Origin: Bacteroidales bacterium
GTDB taxonomy: Bacteria > Bacteroidota > Bacteroidia > Bacteroidales > UBA932
DNA: 50,226 nucleotides
Direction of reading: 5' to 3'
NCBI GenBank assembly: GCA_017616655.1
Contig: JAFZXU010000065.1
Location: 1-50,226, forward strand
This document shows positions 19,624 through 36,372 of the stretch, piece by piece. The number at the start of each line of letters is the position of its first letter. Position 1 is the stretch's first letter. The notes beneath the pieces are model-generated. The model saw only the letters and a list, made by a program, of their open reading frames with translations. It was not told the origin of the DNA and ran no database searches. Made by a program: the position numbers and the translations under genes.

Positions 19624-20603
19624 TGATTAAGGAACAACTCGCCTCCCTCGACGGAGTAACTCTCAACCTCGGCAGCGGCACGGGACTCATCCTGAGCATA
19701 GTGCTGGCCCTGGTGATGTTCGGCATAGCGCTGGGCATCAAACTCGAAACCCTCAAAAAAGTATTCACAGAACCCAAATCGATCATTACCGGCATCCTGC
19801 TGCAGTGGGTGGGACTTCCGCTGATAACCTTCCTGCTGATCATATGCCTCAACCGCTGGCTCACCCCGATGGTGGCCCTCGGCATGCTGCTGGTGGCAAG
19901 CTGCCCAGGCGGAAACATCTCCAACTTCATGAGCTCCTTCGCCAAGGGCAACACGGAGCTCTCGGTAAGCATGACCGCCGTAGCGACAGTGGCCGCCCCG
20001 GTCGTCACCCCCTTCAATTTCTGGCTCTGGGGCAACCTCTACCTTAAATATGCGAGCCTCTACGGCACAATGACCATACCCCAGCTGGTGATTCCCTTCT
20101 GGCATATCTTCACCACCGTATTCATCATCCTCGGCATTCCCATCGTGCTCGGAATGCTCTGCGCGCACTATTTCCCGAAGTTCTCGGAGAGCATCAAGAA
20201 GCCCTTCTCGATCTTCTCGATAGTTGTCTTCCTGGCGATGGTGCTCGGAATGTTCATCCCCAACTGGCAGCTCTTCATCAAGTATATCGCAGTCATCTTC
20301 GTGCTTGTGCTGATCCATAACGCATGCGCCTTCGGCACCGGCTGGACAGGCGCTACGCTGATGAAGCTCCCCAGGATCGACCGCCGCTCCATCACCATAG
20401 AAGTCGGCATCCAAAACTCCGGACTCGGCCTGACGATGCTGCTGAACCCCGCCATCTTCAAGCCCGAACTCTGGAGCAATCCCGAGACCGGCATAATGTA
20501 CGGCGGAATGCTCTTCGTCACCGCGTGGTGGGGCATCTGGCACATCATATCCGGCCTCACCCTGGCCTCGATTTTCAGAACTCAAAAAAATCCAGCAATA
20601 TGA
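19623..20603 (+). CDS. bile acid:sodium symporter (BASS) family transporter
   Basis: This 326-residue inner-membrane protein has about 9 to 10 hydrophobic segments. It has the BASS fold signatures: MFGIALGIKLE early, QWVGLPLITFLL, and VASCPGGNISNFMSSFAKGNTELSVSMTAVAT in the core where Na+ binds. EVGIQNSGLGLTML is the second discontinuous helix. Family members carry bile acids, pantoate, keto acids or other organic anions with Na+; the substrate cannot be read from the sequence. Despite the name, a bile-acid role should not be assumed. The start codon is the last base pair of an 18-bp palindrome, so expression is probably repressor-controlled. The stop overlaps the next start by 4 bp (ATGA). 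Confidence 0.9.
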   Translation: MIKEQLASLDGVTLNLGSGTGLILSIVLALVMFGIALGIKLETLKKVFTEPKSIITGILLQWVGLPLITFLLIICLNRWLTPMVALGMLLVASCPGGNISNFMSSFAKGNTELSVSMTAVATVAAPVVTPFNFWLWGNLYLKYASLYGTMTIPQLVIPFWHIFTTVFIILGIPIVLGMLCAHYFPKFSESIKKPFSIFSIVVFLAMVLGMFIPNWQLFIKYIAVIFVLVLIHNACAFGTGWTGATLMKLPRIDRRSITIEVGIQNSGLGLTMLLNPAIFKPELWSNPETGIMYGGMLFVTAWWGIWHIISGLTLASIFRTQKNPAI

Positions 20604-21298
20604 AACGTATCCTTTTAATCATCTCCGCCATCCTCCTGACCGTCAGCCTCGCAAGCTGCAAGGGAGGCAGCAAGGCGCCCGAAGGCGAACCCACCGAACC
20701 TCAGGAGGCCTTAACCTTCCCCGAGAGTACTGAAAACAGCGAAGCCGTCGAGGCCGAACCACAGGAAGCGGAGAATTCAGCAGAAATGAAAAAAGAGAGC
20801 AAATTCATCATCTCCACCACCATGGGAGACATGACCGTGAAGCTTTACGACGAGACTCCGCTTCACAAGGCCAACTTCGAGAAACTCGCCAACAACCGCT
20901 TTTATGACGGTATTCTCTTCCACCGCATCATCAACGGATTCATGATCCAGACGGGCGACCCCCTCACGAAGGATGCCACCCAGAGCGACAGATGGGGCAA
21001 CGGAGGTCCCGGTTACACCATCCCCGCCGAGATCGTTCCCGGCCTTACCCACAAGAAGGGAGCGCTTGCTGCAGCACGCCGCGGCGACAAGGTCAATCCG
21101 GCCAAGGAATCCTCCGGTTCGCAGTTCTATATCGTACAGGACGAAAACGGGTGCAAGCATCTCGATGGCGAATATACCGTCTTCGGTGAGGTCATAAGCG
21201 GTTTCGATGTGATCGACAAGATCGCATCCACCTCTACTGATATGCGGGACAGACCGCTCAAGGAGGTAAAAATTATTTCTGTCCGAGCAGTAAAATAA
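20600..21298 (+). CDS. cyclophilin-type peptidyl-prolyl isomerase lipoprotein
   Basis: This 232-residue lipoprotein (signal peptide, lipobox LASC, Cys20) has a Glu/Pro/Ala-rich linker to about residue 60 and a full cyclophilin domain. Catalytic and binding blocks are FHRIINGFMIQTGDP, GPGYTIPAEI, GALAAARRGDKVNPAKESSGSQFYI, LDGEYTVFGEV. It would assist proline isomerisation of exported proteins at a membrane face in the periplasm. It overlaps the BASS transporter by 4 bp and so is co-expressed with it; no functional link is known. The frame is open farther upstream, but the lipobox fixes the start at 20600. Confidence 0.93.
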   Translation: MKRILLIISAILLTVSLASCKGGSKAPEGEPTEPQEALTFPESTENSEAVEAEPQEAENSAEMKKESKFIISTTMGDMTVKLYDETPLHKANFEKLANNRFYDGILFHRIINGFMIQTGDPLTKDATQSDRWGNGGPGYTIPAEIVPGLTHKKGALAAARRGDKVNPAKESSGSQFYIVQDENGCKHLDGEYTVFGEVISGFDVIDKIASTSTDMRDRPLKEVKIISVRAVK

Positions 21299-21302
21299 AT
21301 TG

Positions 21303-21318
21303 TGGCACGCCCTTTGCT
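21303..21318 (+). promoter_or_regulatory. consensus-perfect sigma-54 promoter
   Basis: TGGCACGCCCTTTGCT matches TGGCACG-N4-TTGCW at every defined position, with GG and GC 12 nt apart. It lies 4 nt behind the stop of the cyclophilin gene. The predicted start is near 21329. The window also encodes sigma-54 (34445-35857). Confidence 0.8.
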
Positions 21319-21328
21319 TAATCTAAGT

Positions 21329-21404
21329 CGAAAGCATTTCAGTTAAGTGGTTTTTTCATAGGTTAAGTTAAGGTTGAATCAAGCGCTCCCCGGAGCGCTT
21401 TTTT
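21329..21404 (+). ncRNA. candidate sigma-54-dependent small RNA, about 76 nt
   Basis: The interval from the predicted sigma-54 start to the intrinsic terminator holds no ORF of meaningful length. It contains two TTAAGT copies (21343-21348 and 21363-21368) and a T-run (21351-21356) in an otherwise weakly structured 5' part, then a GC-rich terminator hairpin. That is the layout of a short trans-acting RNA. Alternatively it is an attenuated leader of the lipoprotein gene at 21492. No match to a known RNA family is claimed. Confidence 0.4.
21381..21404 (+). terminator. intrinsic terminator
   Basis: AAGCGCTC / GAGCGCTT forms a perfect 8-bp stem with a 4-nt loop, followed by T-rich sequence. It ends both read-through from the cyclophilin gene and any transcript from the sigma-54 promoter. 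Confidence 0.9.
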
Positions 21405-21491: not shown

Positions 21492-22187
21492 ATGAATAAC
21501 CATCATCTTACTCTACTTATTACGATAGTATTATTTGCCAGCTGCACAAAATCACAGAATGGTTCACCTGACATCTATGATTTGGAGTTATCATCTCAGA
21601 GTATTTTTTCACAAAATGTATCAGCGTTGCAACTCATTAGTAACTCTATTCTTAATAGCGAGCCGTTTTCTTTTGAAGCAAATGAAGTTTCGTCATTATC
21701 TGATGCTATTGATGTTATTATTCAGAAATCATATCCTCTTGCTTTTTCATATCCATCAACAACAGTTACAAGGACTATAGGAACAGATCCCGTATTTTCT
21801 TTAATTCCCAATTATTATATGGAGGACTTAAGAAGTACTATTTTATTTGATATCAATAGATTCCATCAAGTTAAAGCAGGGTATTTACAAAGCGATGTTT
21901 TTTATGCTCTAAGCCCGACGGAGCAAGCAGATATCACTAATTACCTTAATACTGTTGAGTTCTGCCGAAACACTATTATCGAAACAGCTTTTGCCTTTCC
22001 AGATAATGCTATAACAAAAGTCTCTGGAGCAGAAATGAGAGCATGGAGCGAAATGGCAAAAAACATGGACGAAGAATCTCAAAGTATGATGATGGATGCG
22101 TTCTTCTATACTGTAGCTGGAGTAGCAGGAGGAACGACAGGTCTGATTATTGGCGCAATCGGTTTAATTGTGTCTTGGATCCGTTAA
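21492..22187 (+). CDS. hypothetical lipoprotein with C-terminal membrane segment
   Basis: This 231-residue protein is not recognised. The signal peptide and lipobox (LFASC, Cys18) predict a lipoprotein. The middle (20 to 200) is mainly helical and Ser-rich with no motif I can name. The last 28 residues are a hydrophobic segment rich in small residues (VAGVAGGTTGLIIGAIGLIV), a glycine-zipper-like helix, ending WIR. A lipid anchor at one end and a membrane-inserting helix at the other is unusual and recalls membrane-active peptides. Base composition is clearly AT-richer than the flanking genes, so recent acquisition is possible. A 50-residue membrane protein gene follows by 21 bp. The ATG at 21492 is chosen for the signal peptide. 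Confidence 0.7.
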   Translation: MNNHHLTLLITIVLFASCTKSQNGSPDIYDLELSSQSIFSQNVSALQLISNSILNSEPFSFEANEVSSLSDAIDVIIQKSYPLAFSYPSTTVTRTIGTDPVFSLIPNYYMEDLRSTILFDINRFHQVKAGYLQSDVFYALSPTEQADITNYLNTVEFCRNTIIETAFAFPDNAITKVSGAEMRAWSEMAKNMDEESQSMMMDAFFYTVAGVAGGTTGLIIGAIGLIVSWIR

Positions 22188-34432: not shown

Positions 34433-34452
34433 CAATCAGCCAGATCAGAGTT
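34425..34452 (+). terminator. bidirectional hairpin between convergent upp and rpoN
   Basis: AACTCTGA / TCAGAGTT forms an 8-bp stem, with a 12-nt loop, that includes both stop codons. It is followed by T-rich sequence on either strand (TTCTTT and TTTTAC), so it may end transcription in both directions. Weaker than the other terminators here. Confidence 0.5.
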
Positions 34453-35857
34453 CTTTCCTGAGCCTTGCTATCGGAATCGAGAGTTGTTCGCGATACTTCG
34501 CGACCGTACGGCGGGCCACGTTATAGCCCTTCTCCTTGAGGACGCTCACCAGTTCCTCGTCGGTGAGGGGCTTTCTCTTGTCCTCCTCCTCGATGCTGGT
34601 GGTGAGGATCTTCTTGATCTCGCGGGTGGAGACCTCCTCCCCTTCGCTGTTGATGAGCCCCTCCGAGAAGAAGTATTTCAGCGGGAAGATGCCGAAGTGG
34701 GTCTGGATGTATTTGCTGTTGACCACCCTTGAGACGGTGGAGATGTCGAACCCCGTCTTTTCGGCTATATTCTTGAGAACCATGGGCTTGAGCTTGGTCT
34801 CGTCGCCATCGAGGAAGTAGTCGTGCTGGAATTCGAGTATGGCCTCCATAGTGCGCTGGAGGGTATTCTGGCGCTGCTTGATGGCCTCGATGAACCACCT
34901 TGCTGAGTCGAGTTTCTGCTTGACGAACGATACGGCCTCCTTCTCGCTTCTGGTCTTCGGGCCGCCCTTGTCATTGAGCATGTCGGCATAGTGCTTGTTG
35001 ATGCGCAGTTCCGGAATCGAATACTTGGGAAGGGAGAGCACCAGCTCCCCGTCCTTTATCTCGAGCAGGAAATCGGGAACGATCTGCTGCGCTTGCTCGG
35101 AGTAGGAATCGTCAATCTGGCCGCCCGGCATAGGATTCAGATGGCGTATCTCGGCGATGGCGGCCTTCAGCTGTTCCTCGTCGATCCCCAGGCGGTTGAT
35201 TATCTTGTTGTAATGCTTCTTGGTAAACTCGTCGAAGCAATCCTCCAGGATGGCCCTGGCATTGTTCACCGGCTCGCTTTCGGAAAGGACGTCCAGCTGC
35301 AGCAGCAGGCACTCGCGAAGGTCCCTGGCCCCTACTCCCGCGGGTTCGAAGCCCTGGATAATCTCGAGTATCTCCTCAAGTTCGTCTTCGGTGGTCTCGA
35401 TTCCCGTCTTGAAACTGATGTCGTCGACGAGCGACTCCATATCGCGCCGCAGGTAGCCGTCGTTGCCTATCATTCCTATCATAAAGAGGGCAATCTGGTG
35501 CCTGCGCGCGTCGAGGCGGCAGAAACCAAGCTGGTTCTCAAGGCTCTGATGGAAACTCTCCTTTACCTGGAAGGTATTGTACTGGGGCTTCAGGTCCTTC
35601 CCCTGGTTGTTGATATAGAGCTTGTATGAAGGGGTATCGTCGTTGGTATATTCGTTGAGCGATACTTTCTTGGGGGCTCCGTCTTCATTCTCGGTATCAT
35701 CCACCACCTCGTCCAGCACCGGGTTCTCCTCTATCTCCTTCTGGATACGCTGCTCCAGTTCCAGGCGGGGAAGCTCTATCAGCTTGATGGTCTGGATCTG
35801 CAGCGGCGAGAGGCGCTGAACCTGCTTGAGCTGAAGACTCTGGCCCTGCTTTACCAT
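34445..35857 (-). CDS. rpoN: RNA polymerase sigma-54 factor
   Basis: This 470-residue sigma factor has the Gln-rich activator-interacting region I (QSLQLKQVQRLSPLQIQTIKLIELP), an acidic region II (NPVLDEVVDDTENEDG), the core-binding domain, and the C-terminal DNA-binding domain ending with the RpoN box (ARRTVAKYREQL) that reads -24. It directs polymerase to TGGCACG-N4-TTGCW promoters and needs an AAA+ activator, none of which is encoded here. The frame extends to 35908, but the ATG at 35857 begins the family N-terminus. It overlaps the upstream SPOR gene by 7 bp. Confidence 0.96.
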   Translation of the reverse strand: MVKQGQSLQLKQVQRLSPLQIQTIKLIELPRLELEQRIQKEIEENPVLDEVVDDTENEDGAPKKVSLNEYTNDDTPSYKLYINNQGKDLKPQYNTFQVKESFHQSLENQLGFCRLDARRHQIALFMIGMIGNDGYLRRDMESLVDDISFKTGIETTEDELEEILEIIQGFEPAGVGARDLRECLLLQLDVLSESEPVNNARAILEDCFDEFTKKHYNKIINRLGIDEEQLKAAIAEIRHLNPMPGGQIDDSYSEQAQQIVPDFLLEIKDGELVLSLPKYSIPELRINKHYADMLNDKGGPKTRSEKEAVSFVKQKLDSARWFIEAIKQRQNTLQRTMEAILEFQHDYFLDGDETKLKPMVLKNIAEKTGFDISTVSRVVNSKYIQTHFGIFPLKYFFSEGLINSEGEEVSTREIKKILTTSIEEEDKRKPLTDEELVSVLKEKGYNVARRTVAKYREQLSIPIARLRKEL

Positions 35858-36372
35858 AACGAAGGATAGTTGATGTGCTCCTTGACGAGGAATGCCGAAG
35901 GGAACCACCCCTTGAGGCGCTCCGCAAAGAGCTGGGCCTCGTCACGGGAGCGGAAGTCGCCTACCGTGACCTTGAAATAGGGGGAGACGTATGACCTGTA
36001 AATGGATATTCCGGGATATGCGGCAGCGAATGCTCCTGCAACCGACTCGGAACGCTGACGGGCATTCTGGCTGTTGTCGAAGAAAATCCTCACCCTGTAA
36101 CCGGTGATCTTGCGGCTGGAATTGCCGGCGACATGCCTTGCAAATGCAGCCTTGACCGCCTGCGACTGCTCGATATTGACCGTTCCGGAAGTCAGGGTCG
36201 ACTTTGAGAGCACATCGAAGATATTCTTGCCCGAATAACTTATGTCCTCGCTGGGGAGAGGCTCATAAACGGGAAGGGAATCGGTGGCTGATGCCGTCTG
36301 GGTCGTATTCTGGGCCAGAAGGGCTGCGGACGAAAGAAGAGCCGCGAAGAGTATGGTCAGGGTCTTTTTCAT
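35851..36372 (-). CDS. SPOR-domain exported protein
   Basis: This 173-residue protein has a signal peptide (MKKTLTILFAALLSSAALLAQ), a short linker, and a SPOR fold at about 90 to 165 (KITGYRVRIFFDNSQNARQRSESVAGAFAAAYPG, YFKVTVGDFRSRDEAQLFAERLKGWFP). SPOR domains bind denuded peptidoglycan at sites of division or remodelling, so a periplasmic wall-associated role is expected. No transmembrane anchor or lipobox is seen. It overlaps the upstream lipoprotein gene by 4 bp (ATGA) and rpoN by 7 bp, making a tight three-gene operon with the sigma factor at the end. Confidence 0.88.
   Translation of the reverse strand: MKKTLTILFAALLSSAALLAQNTTQTASATDSLPVYEPLPSEDISYSGKNIFDVLSKSTLTSGTVNIEQSQAVKAAFARHVAGNSSRKITGYRVRIFFDNSQNARQRSESVAGAFAAAYPGISIYRSYVSPYFKVTVGDFRSRDEAQLFAERLKGWFPSAFLVKEHINYPSLW

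Follow-up and report, generated by a model that had tools for sequence, protein, structure and literature searches.

GlmY and GlmZ of the Enterobacteria, two paralogues, are small RNAs transcribed from σ54 promoters. In Bacteroides thetaiotaomicron the FopS group, as set out in the sections of PMC11697453 consulted, comprises 14 sRNAs whose 5′ seed is unpaired and which inhibit translation of SusC-like receptors, with the RRM protein RbpB as antagonist; the same sections give the FopS promoters as housekeeping type and one Bacteroides FopS as derived from a 3′ UTR. GibS shares the FopS seed and uses a promoter motif at −10/−30 (PMC7366714, sections consulted). Among open-licence papers we found no σ54-driven sRNA in Bacteroidales, a search that does not establish absence from print, and in the consulted part of PMC12316311 the main text contains 0 occurrences of "sRNA" or "small RNA."

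Here we analyzed a window, the whole 50,226-nt stretch of DNA, on contig C36 of a draft genome of 2.09 Mb in 73 contigs, in which a first-pass annotation had proposed a σ54-dependent small RNA. That proposal is supported comparatively, with promoter, spacing, core, and covarying terminator conserved together, and we consider it fairly probable, from sequence comparison, that the locus (Table 1) is a gene for a trans-acting antisense sRNA, a relative of Bacteroides FopS, that would be transcribed by RNA polymerase with σ54. The link to FopS, a second copy in the same genome, and promoter-class switching within one RNA family are new here.

Table 1. Features of the sRNA locus and its surroundings (window positions)
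Feature	Position	Strand	Basis
σ54 (−24/−12) promoter, TGGCACG-N4-TTGCT	21303..21318	+	Exact motif match
Predicted small RNA, about 74-76 nt	21329..21404	+	+1 from the −12 C; 3′ end from the terminator; RNA-only model R2
Conserved core, GTTTTTTCATAGGTTAAGT	21350..21368	+	Little or no variation among 43 aligned genus copies
Second conserved block, TAAGGTTG in the window, commonly TTAGGTTA in relatives	21369..21376	+	Alignments
Intrinsic terminator: 8-bp stem (21381-21400), 4-nt loop, T-run	21381..21404	+	Predicted fold, covariation
Cyclophilin-type lipoprotein gene	20600..21298	+	Translation, named by eye; homologue precedes 21/49 genus copies
Small lipoprotein gene, unrelated accessory neighbor	21492..22187	+	No Pfam match; no homologue in other loci compared
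rpoN, σ54 factor	34445..35908	−	PF04552 (E 1e-53), PF04963 (E 4e-55), RpoN box

The promoter begins 4 nt past the stop codon of the cyclophilin gene. As the first-pass annotation had stated, the −24/−12 element is perfect: TGGCACGCCCTTTGCT is the sole exact TGGCACN5TTGCW in the window, and the GG-N10-GC pattern expected of σ54 promoters is exact and conserved. Its predicted start, 21329, was likewise obtained by counting from the −12 C at 21317. With up to one mismatch allowed, the window holds 2 motif matches against 1.3 expected (two or more occur in 39 of 100 shuffles), and genome-wide there are 90 matches against 109 for the reversed pattern, that is, no enrichment. Because the genome-wide counts do not rise above this reversed control, the −24/−12 match taken alone is weak evidence; it is conservation, as judged from aligned copies, that raises the predicted promoter above chance.

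Exact σ54 motifs number 6 in the 2.09 Mb of the genome, and two of these precede the two RNAs. The second RNA copy was found as a match of R2, a sequence model of the RNA part only, at C28:17475-17520, directly behind a uvrD-type helicase gene, and a search with the promoter only places an exact motif before it, at C28:17447-17461. Among the other four exact motifs, two fall inside ORFs (L002, L007); one (L004, C31:143014-143028, minus strand) is upstream of what reads, by eye, like groES-groEL; and one (L006, C50:109679-109693, minus strand) lies some 50 nt upstream of a gene encoding a small secreted protein (MKKFIASVLVISIAMMGTLSYNAAAKG...). A σ54-dependent GroES is mentioned for B. thetaiotaomicron in the consulted part of PMC12316311.

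Within the genus the element is widespread. With a 131-nt DNA query, 36 of the 40 genus genomes, the window's own among them, give a match at E ≤ 0.0025 and the other four a weak one; 15 of the 40 show a pair of matches in opposite orientation, roughly 5.2 kb from each other, as in L062, where one copy stands behind a cyclophilin gene and the other behind rimM. The closest relative, G019, matches the query at 92% identity. We assembled 49 distinct genus copies, which span loci of 33 of the 40 genomes, seven genomes being without a locus; 43 carry an exact TGGCAC-N5-TTGC, 5 have one mismatch, and 1 is cut by a contig end, so that the motif is present in all 48 copies with enough upstream sequence. 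When 43 copies are aligned, the consensus is CGAATAGTTTTTTCATAGGTTAAGTTTTAGGTTAA; within it TTTTTCATAGGTTA and a later AGGTT are invariant or nearly so, and the terminator sequence varies. The alignment across relatives that the first-pass annotation had proposed as a check thus came out in its favor: promoter, start spacing, core, and terminator are kept together as neighboring genes change, and the stem covaries. It had also named poor −24/−12 conservation in relatives that keep rpoN as evidence against a σ54 promoter; this is not seen in the genus (48 of 48 copies keep the motif), although some other genera of the family carry a housekeeping box despite having rpoN.

The predicted terminator stem begins 62 nt past the promoter. 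The 8-bp stem and T-run described in the first-pass annotation are present, and it was correct that no ORF of usable size lies between promoter and terminator. Its two TTAAGT repeats also exist (21343-21348 and 21363-21368), but the conserved unit is the core, about 21350-21368, and not the repeat. Terminator-like sites as such occur in the region at chance level (2 found against 1.9 expected), and the fold stability of the window RNA is not unusual (z −1.16). We examined covariation with a structure derived from the same 43-copy alignment on which it was scored. In this alignment 86.6% of cells are paired compared with 72.3% in shuffles, 52 cells are changed on both sides of the stem compared with 18.7, and the covariation score is 0.50 compared with 0.24, with 0 of 500 shuffles as high in each case. 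Two of the five measures, changed pairs and pair types, are not above the shuffles (213/500 and 359/500), and some slid structures equal the observed value for these two. Collectively, the alignment indicates that the terminator helix is maintained by compensatory change. In the predicted fold the core is largely unpaired, with four core U residues of the window copy in a weak 5′ hairpin. The 5′ part of the window RNA (about 21329-21349) is much shorter in most aligned relatives, and its greater length is common to the window copy and its nearest relative, G019.

The genes on either side of the element bear on two other explanations. The lipoprotein gene at 21492 lies on the same strand, 87 nt past the T-run, and this position would suit a terminator-controlled 5′ leader, or attenuator, in which σ54 drives that gene, the alternative offered by the first-pass annotation. 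We consider such a leader very improbable. The element occurs in loci of 33 genus genomes and the lipoprotein in the loci of the window genome only, with no homologue in the other loci compared, including 9 kb around the G019 copy; a second RNA copy exists elsewhere in the same genome; and the seven folds computed have no shared alternative to the terminator. The lipoprotein gene is itself an orphan, A+T-rich by eye, between the sRNA and a gene that reads like rpsP. On the upstream side, the neighbor of the 49 genus copies is a cyclophilin gene in 21, rimM in 15, and neither, or a contig end, in 13, and thus in 36 of 49 copies one of these two genes is directly upstream on the same strand. This arrangement would be expected of an RNA processed from the 3′ end of the cyclophilin (or rimM) transcript, terminator included, with the −24/−12 element unused, and there is precedent in the 3′-UTR-derived Bacteroides FopS (PMC11697453, sections consulted). 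A 3′-UTR origin is nevertheless unlikely in our judgment; it leaves unexplained the near-fixed distance from TGGCAC/TTGC to the RNA and the exchange of this element for TAnnTTTG in other genera. The cyclophilin-type gene may share the RNA's terminator, and such sharing by an upstream gene is compatible with an independently transcribed, σ54-dependent sRNA.

To follow the RNA apart from its promoter, R2 contains no promoter sequence. It was built from 54 diverse copies, in which TTTTTCATAG is invariant; all 54 came from searches that used the promoter, and very dissimilar copies may escape it. R2 recovers the window copy in its own genome (C36:21346, E 2.1e-7) and matches 102 of 119 family genomes and 23 of 25 genera, with 1-5 matches per family genome having any, among the matches listed, and 2 in the window genome. 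From 100 regions fetched by place and 49 additional loci we obtained 166 rows, which after removal of 3 R2 matches without a recognizable core and 5 duplicate rows left 158 distinct family copies among the matches listed. Within 62 nt upstream of the core, the σ54 motif is exact in 77 of these listed copies, has one mismatch in 40 and two in 11, and is missing in 30; 117 of the 158 are therefore within one mismatch, compared with 34 (0 exact) of 31,600 composition-shuffled upstream sequences. The core lies 28 to 51 nt, mostly 31-36 nt, from the promoter block, and the spacing from the −12 C to a conserved GAA at the predicted start fits σ54 geometry.

Of the 30 listed copies without a σ54 motif, 23 carry a housekeeping TAnnTTTG box in the same interval. 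Divided by class, the 158 listed copies comprise 109 with the σ54 motif only, 23 with TAnnTTTG only, 8 with both, 7 with neither, and 11 with two-mismatch motifs, so that the two promoter elements are nearly mutually exclusive. At least one copy with a σ54 motif is found in 16 of the 19 genera tabulated. In the window's genus all 32 tabulated copies have the motif, two of them with TAnnTTTG as well. The housekeeping type prevails in g191 (6 of 6 copies) and g200 (13 of 19 with TAnnTTTG and no σ54 motif), and some genomes, G047 and G165 among them, combine a σ54-type copy with a housekeeping-type copy. These comparisons indicate that the promoter class is switched inside one sRNA family. Promoter type shows no correspondence with loss of rpoN, which is present in 5 of 6 g191 and 7 of 8 g200 genomes, genera with housekeeping-type copies. 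Co-occurrence of the RNA and rpoN is uninformative, as rpoN is found in 278 of 295 order genomes and 37 of 40 chosen family genomes.

The window itself encodes σ54, and the rpoN product contains ARRTVAKYRE, which we take to be the RpoN box. PF00158 has 6 matches in the genome, three of them strong (E below 1e-68); both elements expected with a σ54 promoter, rpoN and AAA+ activators, are thus present. Two receiver-AAA activators on other contigs of the genome (L262:1066-2250 on C66 and L263:1093-2238 on C47) stop directly behind the AAA lid; in neither does Pfam identify a DNA-binding domain, and they read GAFTSA/GSFTSA. The usual motif of σ54 activators is GAFTGA. The third strong activator has GSFTGA and a Fis-type HTH. 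A k-mer and dyad search upstream of the copies revealed no convincing shared activator site, and the k-mers that surfaced may mirror shared upstream coding sequence; activators lacking a DNA-binding domain would fit this lack of a visible enhancer. In G165 (L200, L301), a 99%-complete genome, one copy is preceded by a σ54 motif and no rpoN was found, though all 6 sister genomes tested have rpoN and two strong activators are retained in G165; the absence of rpoN is likely an assembly gap and otherwise would make the motif a relic.

The missing enhancer site is also what would be expected if TGGCAC-N5-TTGC were the site of another regulator and the housekeeping σ transcribed a FopS-like sRNA. 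We regard this explanation as distinctly unlikely, given that 109 of the 117 listed motif-bearing copies have no TAnnTTTG in the same 62 nt, that the distance from the −12 C to GAA suits σ54, and that rpoN with its box and activators are encoded in the genome. Transcription of the RNA by the σ54 form of RNA polymerase remains our preferred reading.

The core is complementary to AACCUAUGAAAAAA, which reads as a start codon and then codons common in signal peptides; judging from its sequence, the core is probably an antisense seed for start codons (complement AACCTATGAAAAAA). The second block would pair with AACC upstream of start codons, and AACC is present within 25 nt upstream of the start in 12 of 22 receptor genes, 10 of 63 signal-like genes, and 31 of 239 other genes. 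We computed duplexes over −25 to +21 around the start, taken as the first ATG, with mRNA structure ignored, in a sample of the RNA's own genome that combined stretches totaling 400 kb with the window and with the loci of 24 receptors defined by the Plug domain, not all of which are SusC. For the window RNA, in a test from which L407 and L416, receptor loci with poor starts, and receptor-gene copies in the background set were excluded, the mean duplex energy is −18.1 kcal/mol for the starts of 22 TonB-receptor genes, −15.6 for those of 63 signal-like genes, and −14.1 for those of 239 others. The receptors differ from the others at p = 3e-5 and from the signal-like set at p = 0.012, values uncorrected for the several RNAs tried, and the reversed RNA gives p = 0.96 and 0.49, respectively. 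For the window RNA, predicted pairing is thus stronger at the starts of TonB-dependent receptor genes than at those of other genes. The 17-nt core alone does not distinguish TonB receptors from other signal-like starts (p 0.2), and for the second own copy, in a test that includes the omitted loci and gene copies, the preference for receptor starts does not reach significance (p = 0.066). The genes that come within one mismatch of the core complement in their start region include one of exbB type.

The reverse complement of the core reads CTTAACCTATGAAAAAA, and in principle the opposite strand could be the functional one, with a micro-protein beginning ATGAAAAAA as its product. The reading frame is not maintained (6 codons in the window copy, 5 in the genome's second copy), the core-promoter distance varies by copy, and the σ54 motif is oriented oppositely; we hold a reverse-strand micro-protein to be extremely unlikely. 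For the antisense sRNA, the proposed sequence of events is that an activator would open the σ54 promoter in response to a signal, that the RNA would pair around the start codons of mRNAs encoding TonB-dependent (SusC-like) receptors and further secreted proteins, and that the paired RNA would block ribosome entry. An RRM protein, of which the genome encodes one (RRM_1), may modulate the pairing as RbpB does in B. thetaiotaomicron.

The element extends beyond the family. A scan of named genomes for promoter plus core returned at least 122 matches in at least 118 stretches; among the matches listed, 90 pass the core filter and 32 fail, of which at least two (L096, L134) resemble the element. Records labeled Bacteroidales, Bacteroidia, or a member group account for 89 of the 90 passing among the matches listed, the lone exception, L133, being labeled Ignavibacteriae and itself a doubtful match. 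The groups represented among the matches listed include Candidatus Cryptobacteroides, Candidatus Coprenecus, an Alistipes-labeled MAG, Bacteroidales bacterium CF, Saccharicrinis aurantiacus, and other Marinilabiliaceae. At E ≤ 0.01, R2 has matches in 163 of the 295 order genomes, some of them probably weak or due to chance. Thirty order loci were returned, 28 with a recognizable core; the σ54 motif is within one mismatch in 5 of the 28 (L200, L201, L205, L209, and the window copy, L217), and the remaining 23 consist of 12 with TAnnTTTG in the 75 nt upstream and 11 with neither. Tandem arrangements also occur: L171:6371-6643 holds a pair of RNAs with a σ54 promoter on each member, and two RNA matches adjoin at L231:1501-1767 and at L110:7421-7589.

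At the Rfam gathering cut-offs the window yields tRNA only. Below them, the FopS family, RF04319, matches the window copy over its full length at 26.2 bits (gathering cut-off 56), as well as 3 of 4 genus loci, 10 of 19 mainly order-wide loci, and 3 of 8 named loci, one of the latter being the same place as a genus locus. The best locus scores 35.4 bits, every locus scanned is below the cut-off, and no RF04319 match is listed for the second own copy (L365). As the Rfam threshold is not reached, we name the RNA FopS-like. Common descent with FopS is likely on sequence grounds because of the shared pattern UUUUUCAU(A/G)G...AGGUUAA followed by a terminator. A phage search with a 201-nt stretch gave 7 records, the best at E 0.2, which is chance level.

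If correct, this reading would link σ54, about whose role in Bacteroidales little is known, with the post-transcriptional regulation of nutrient receptors. It would also provide a clean example of an sRNA family in which the RNA is retained and the class of promoter is exchanged, and would place FopS-type RNAs in families of the order other than Bacteroidaceae. A named strain, Saccharicrinis aurantiacus HQYD1, carries the element and its σ54 promoter (loci L110, L194), which makes the reading testable. A broader proposal, for which we see the case as evenly balanced, is that the σ input of a conserved receptor-silencing RNA has been exchanged repeatedly and that σ54, partly via activators without DNA-binding domains, would act as a cell-wide brake on the uptake of glycans and nutrients across a large group of gut Bacteroidales. 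Under such an exchange the housekeeping σ would serve in Bacteroides and some genera and σ54 in most tabulated genera, with Marinilabiliaceae using σ54 separately or by ancestry, an assignment that we would put at even chances.

Compared with the known systems, GlmY and GlmZ are longer than the window RNA and have different targets and a different fold. BTnc231 (RF04180) has a 5′ part that weakly matches the core, but it is 154 nt long and scores 20-28 bits, far under its cut-off of 80.4. Like GibS, as presented in the consulted sections of PMC7366714, the window RNA has an R1-type seed at its 5′ end, predicted start-codon pairing, and a putative non-housekeeping promoter; unlike it, GibS is 145 nt long with a second seed and internal hairpins, and its PM2 promoter motif is at −10/−30 rather than −24/−12. 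The differences from FopS, reported so far within Bacteroidaceae and a phage, lie in the bit scores (26-35 against the cut-off of 56), in copy number (2 in the window genome and 1-5 per matching family genome among the matches listed, compared with 12-15 per genome), and in the promoter. FopS uses a σABfr promoter, whereas an exact σ54 motif precedes both own copies, with no TAnnTTTG listed before the window copy; the FopS-type housekeeping promoter does occur in g191, g200, and single copies elsewhere. In other respects the resemblance to FopS is close: a short RNA with a single-stranded 5′ end carrying the shared pattern, an unpaired 5′ seed followed by an intrinsic terminator, to which the window copy adds its weak 5′ hairpin, predicted pairing around the start codons of TonB-dependent receptors, and an RRM_1 protein encoded in the genome.
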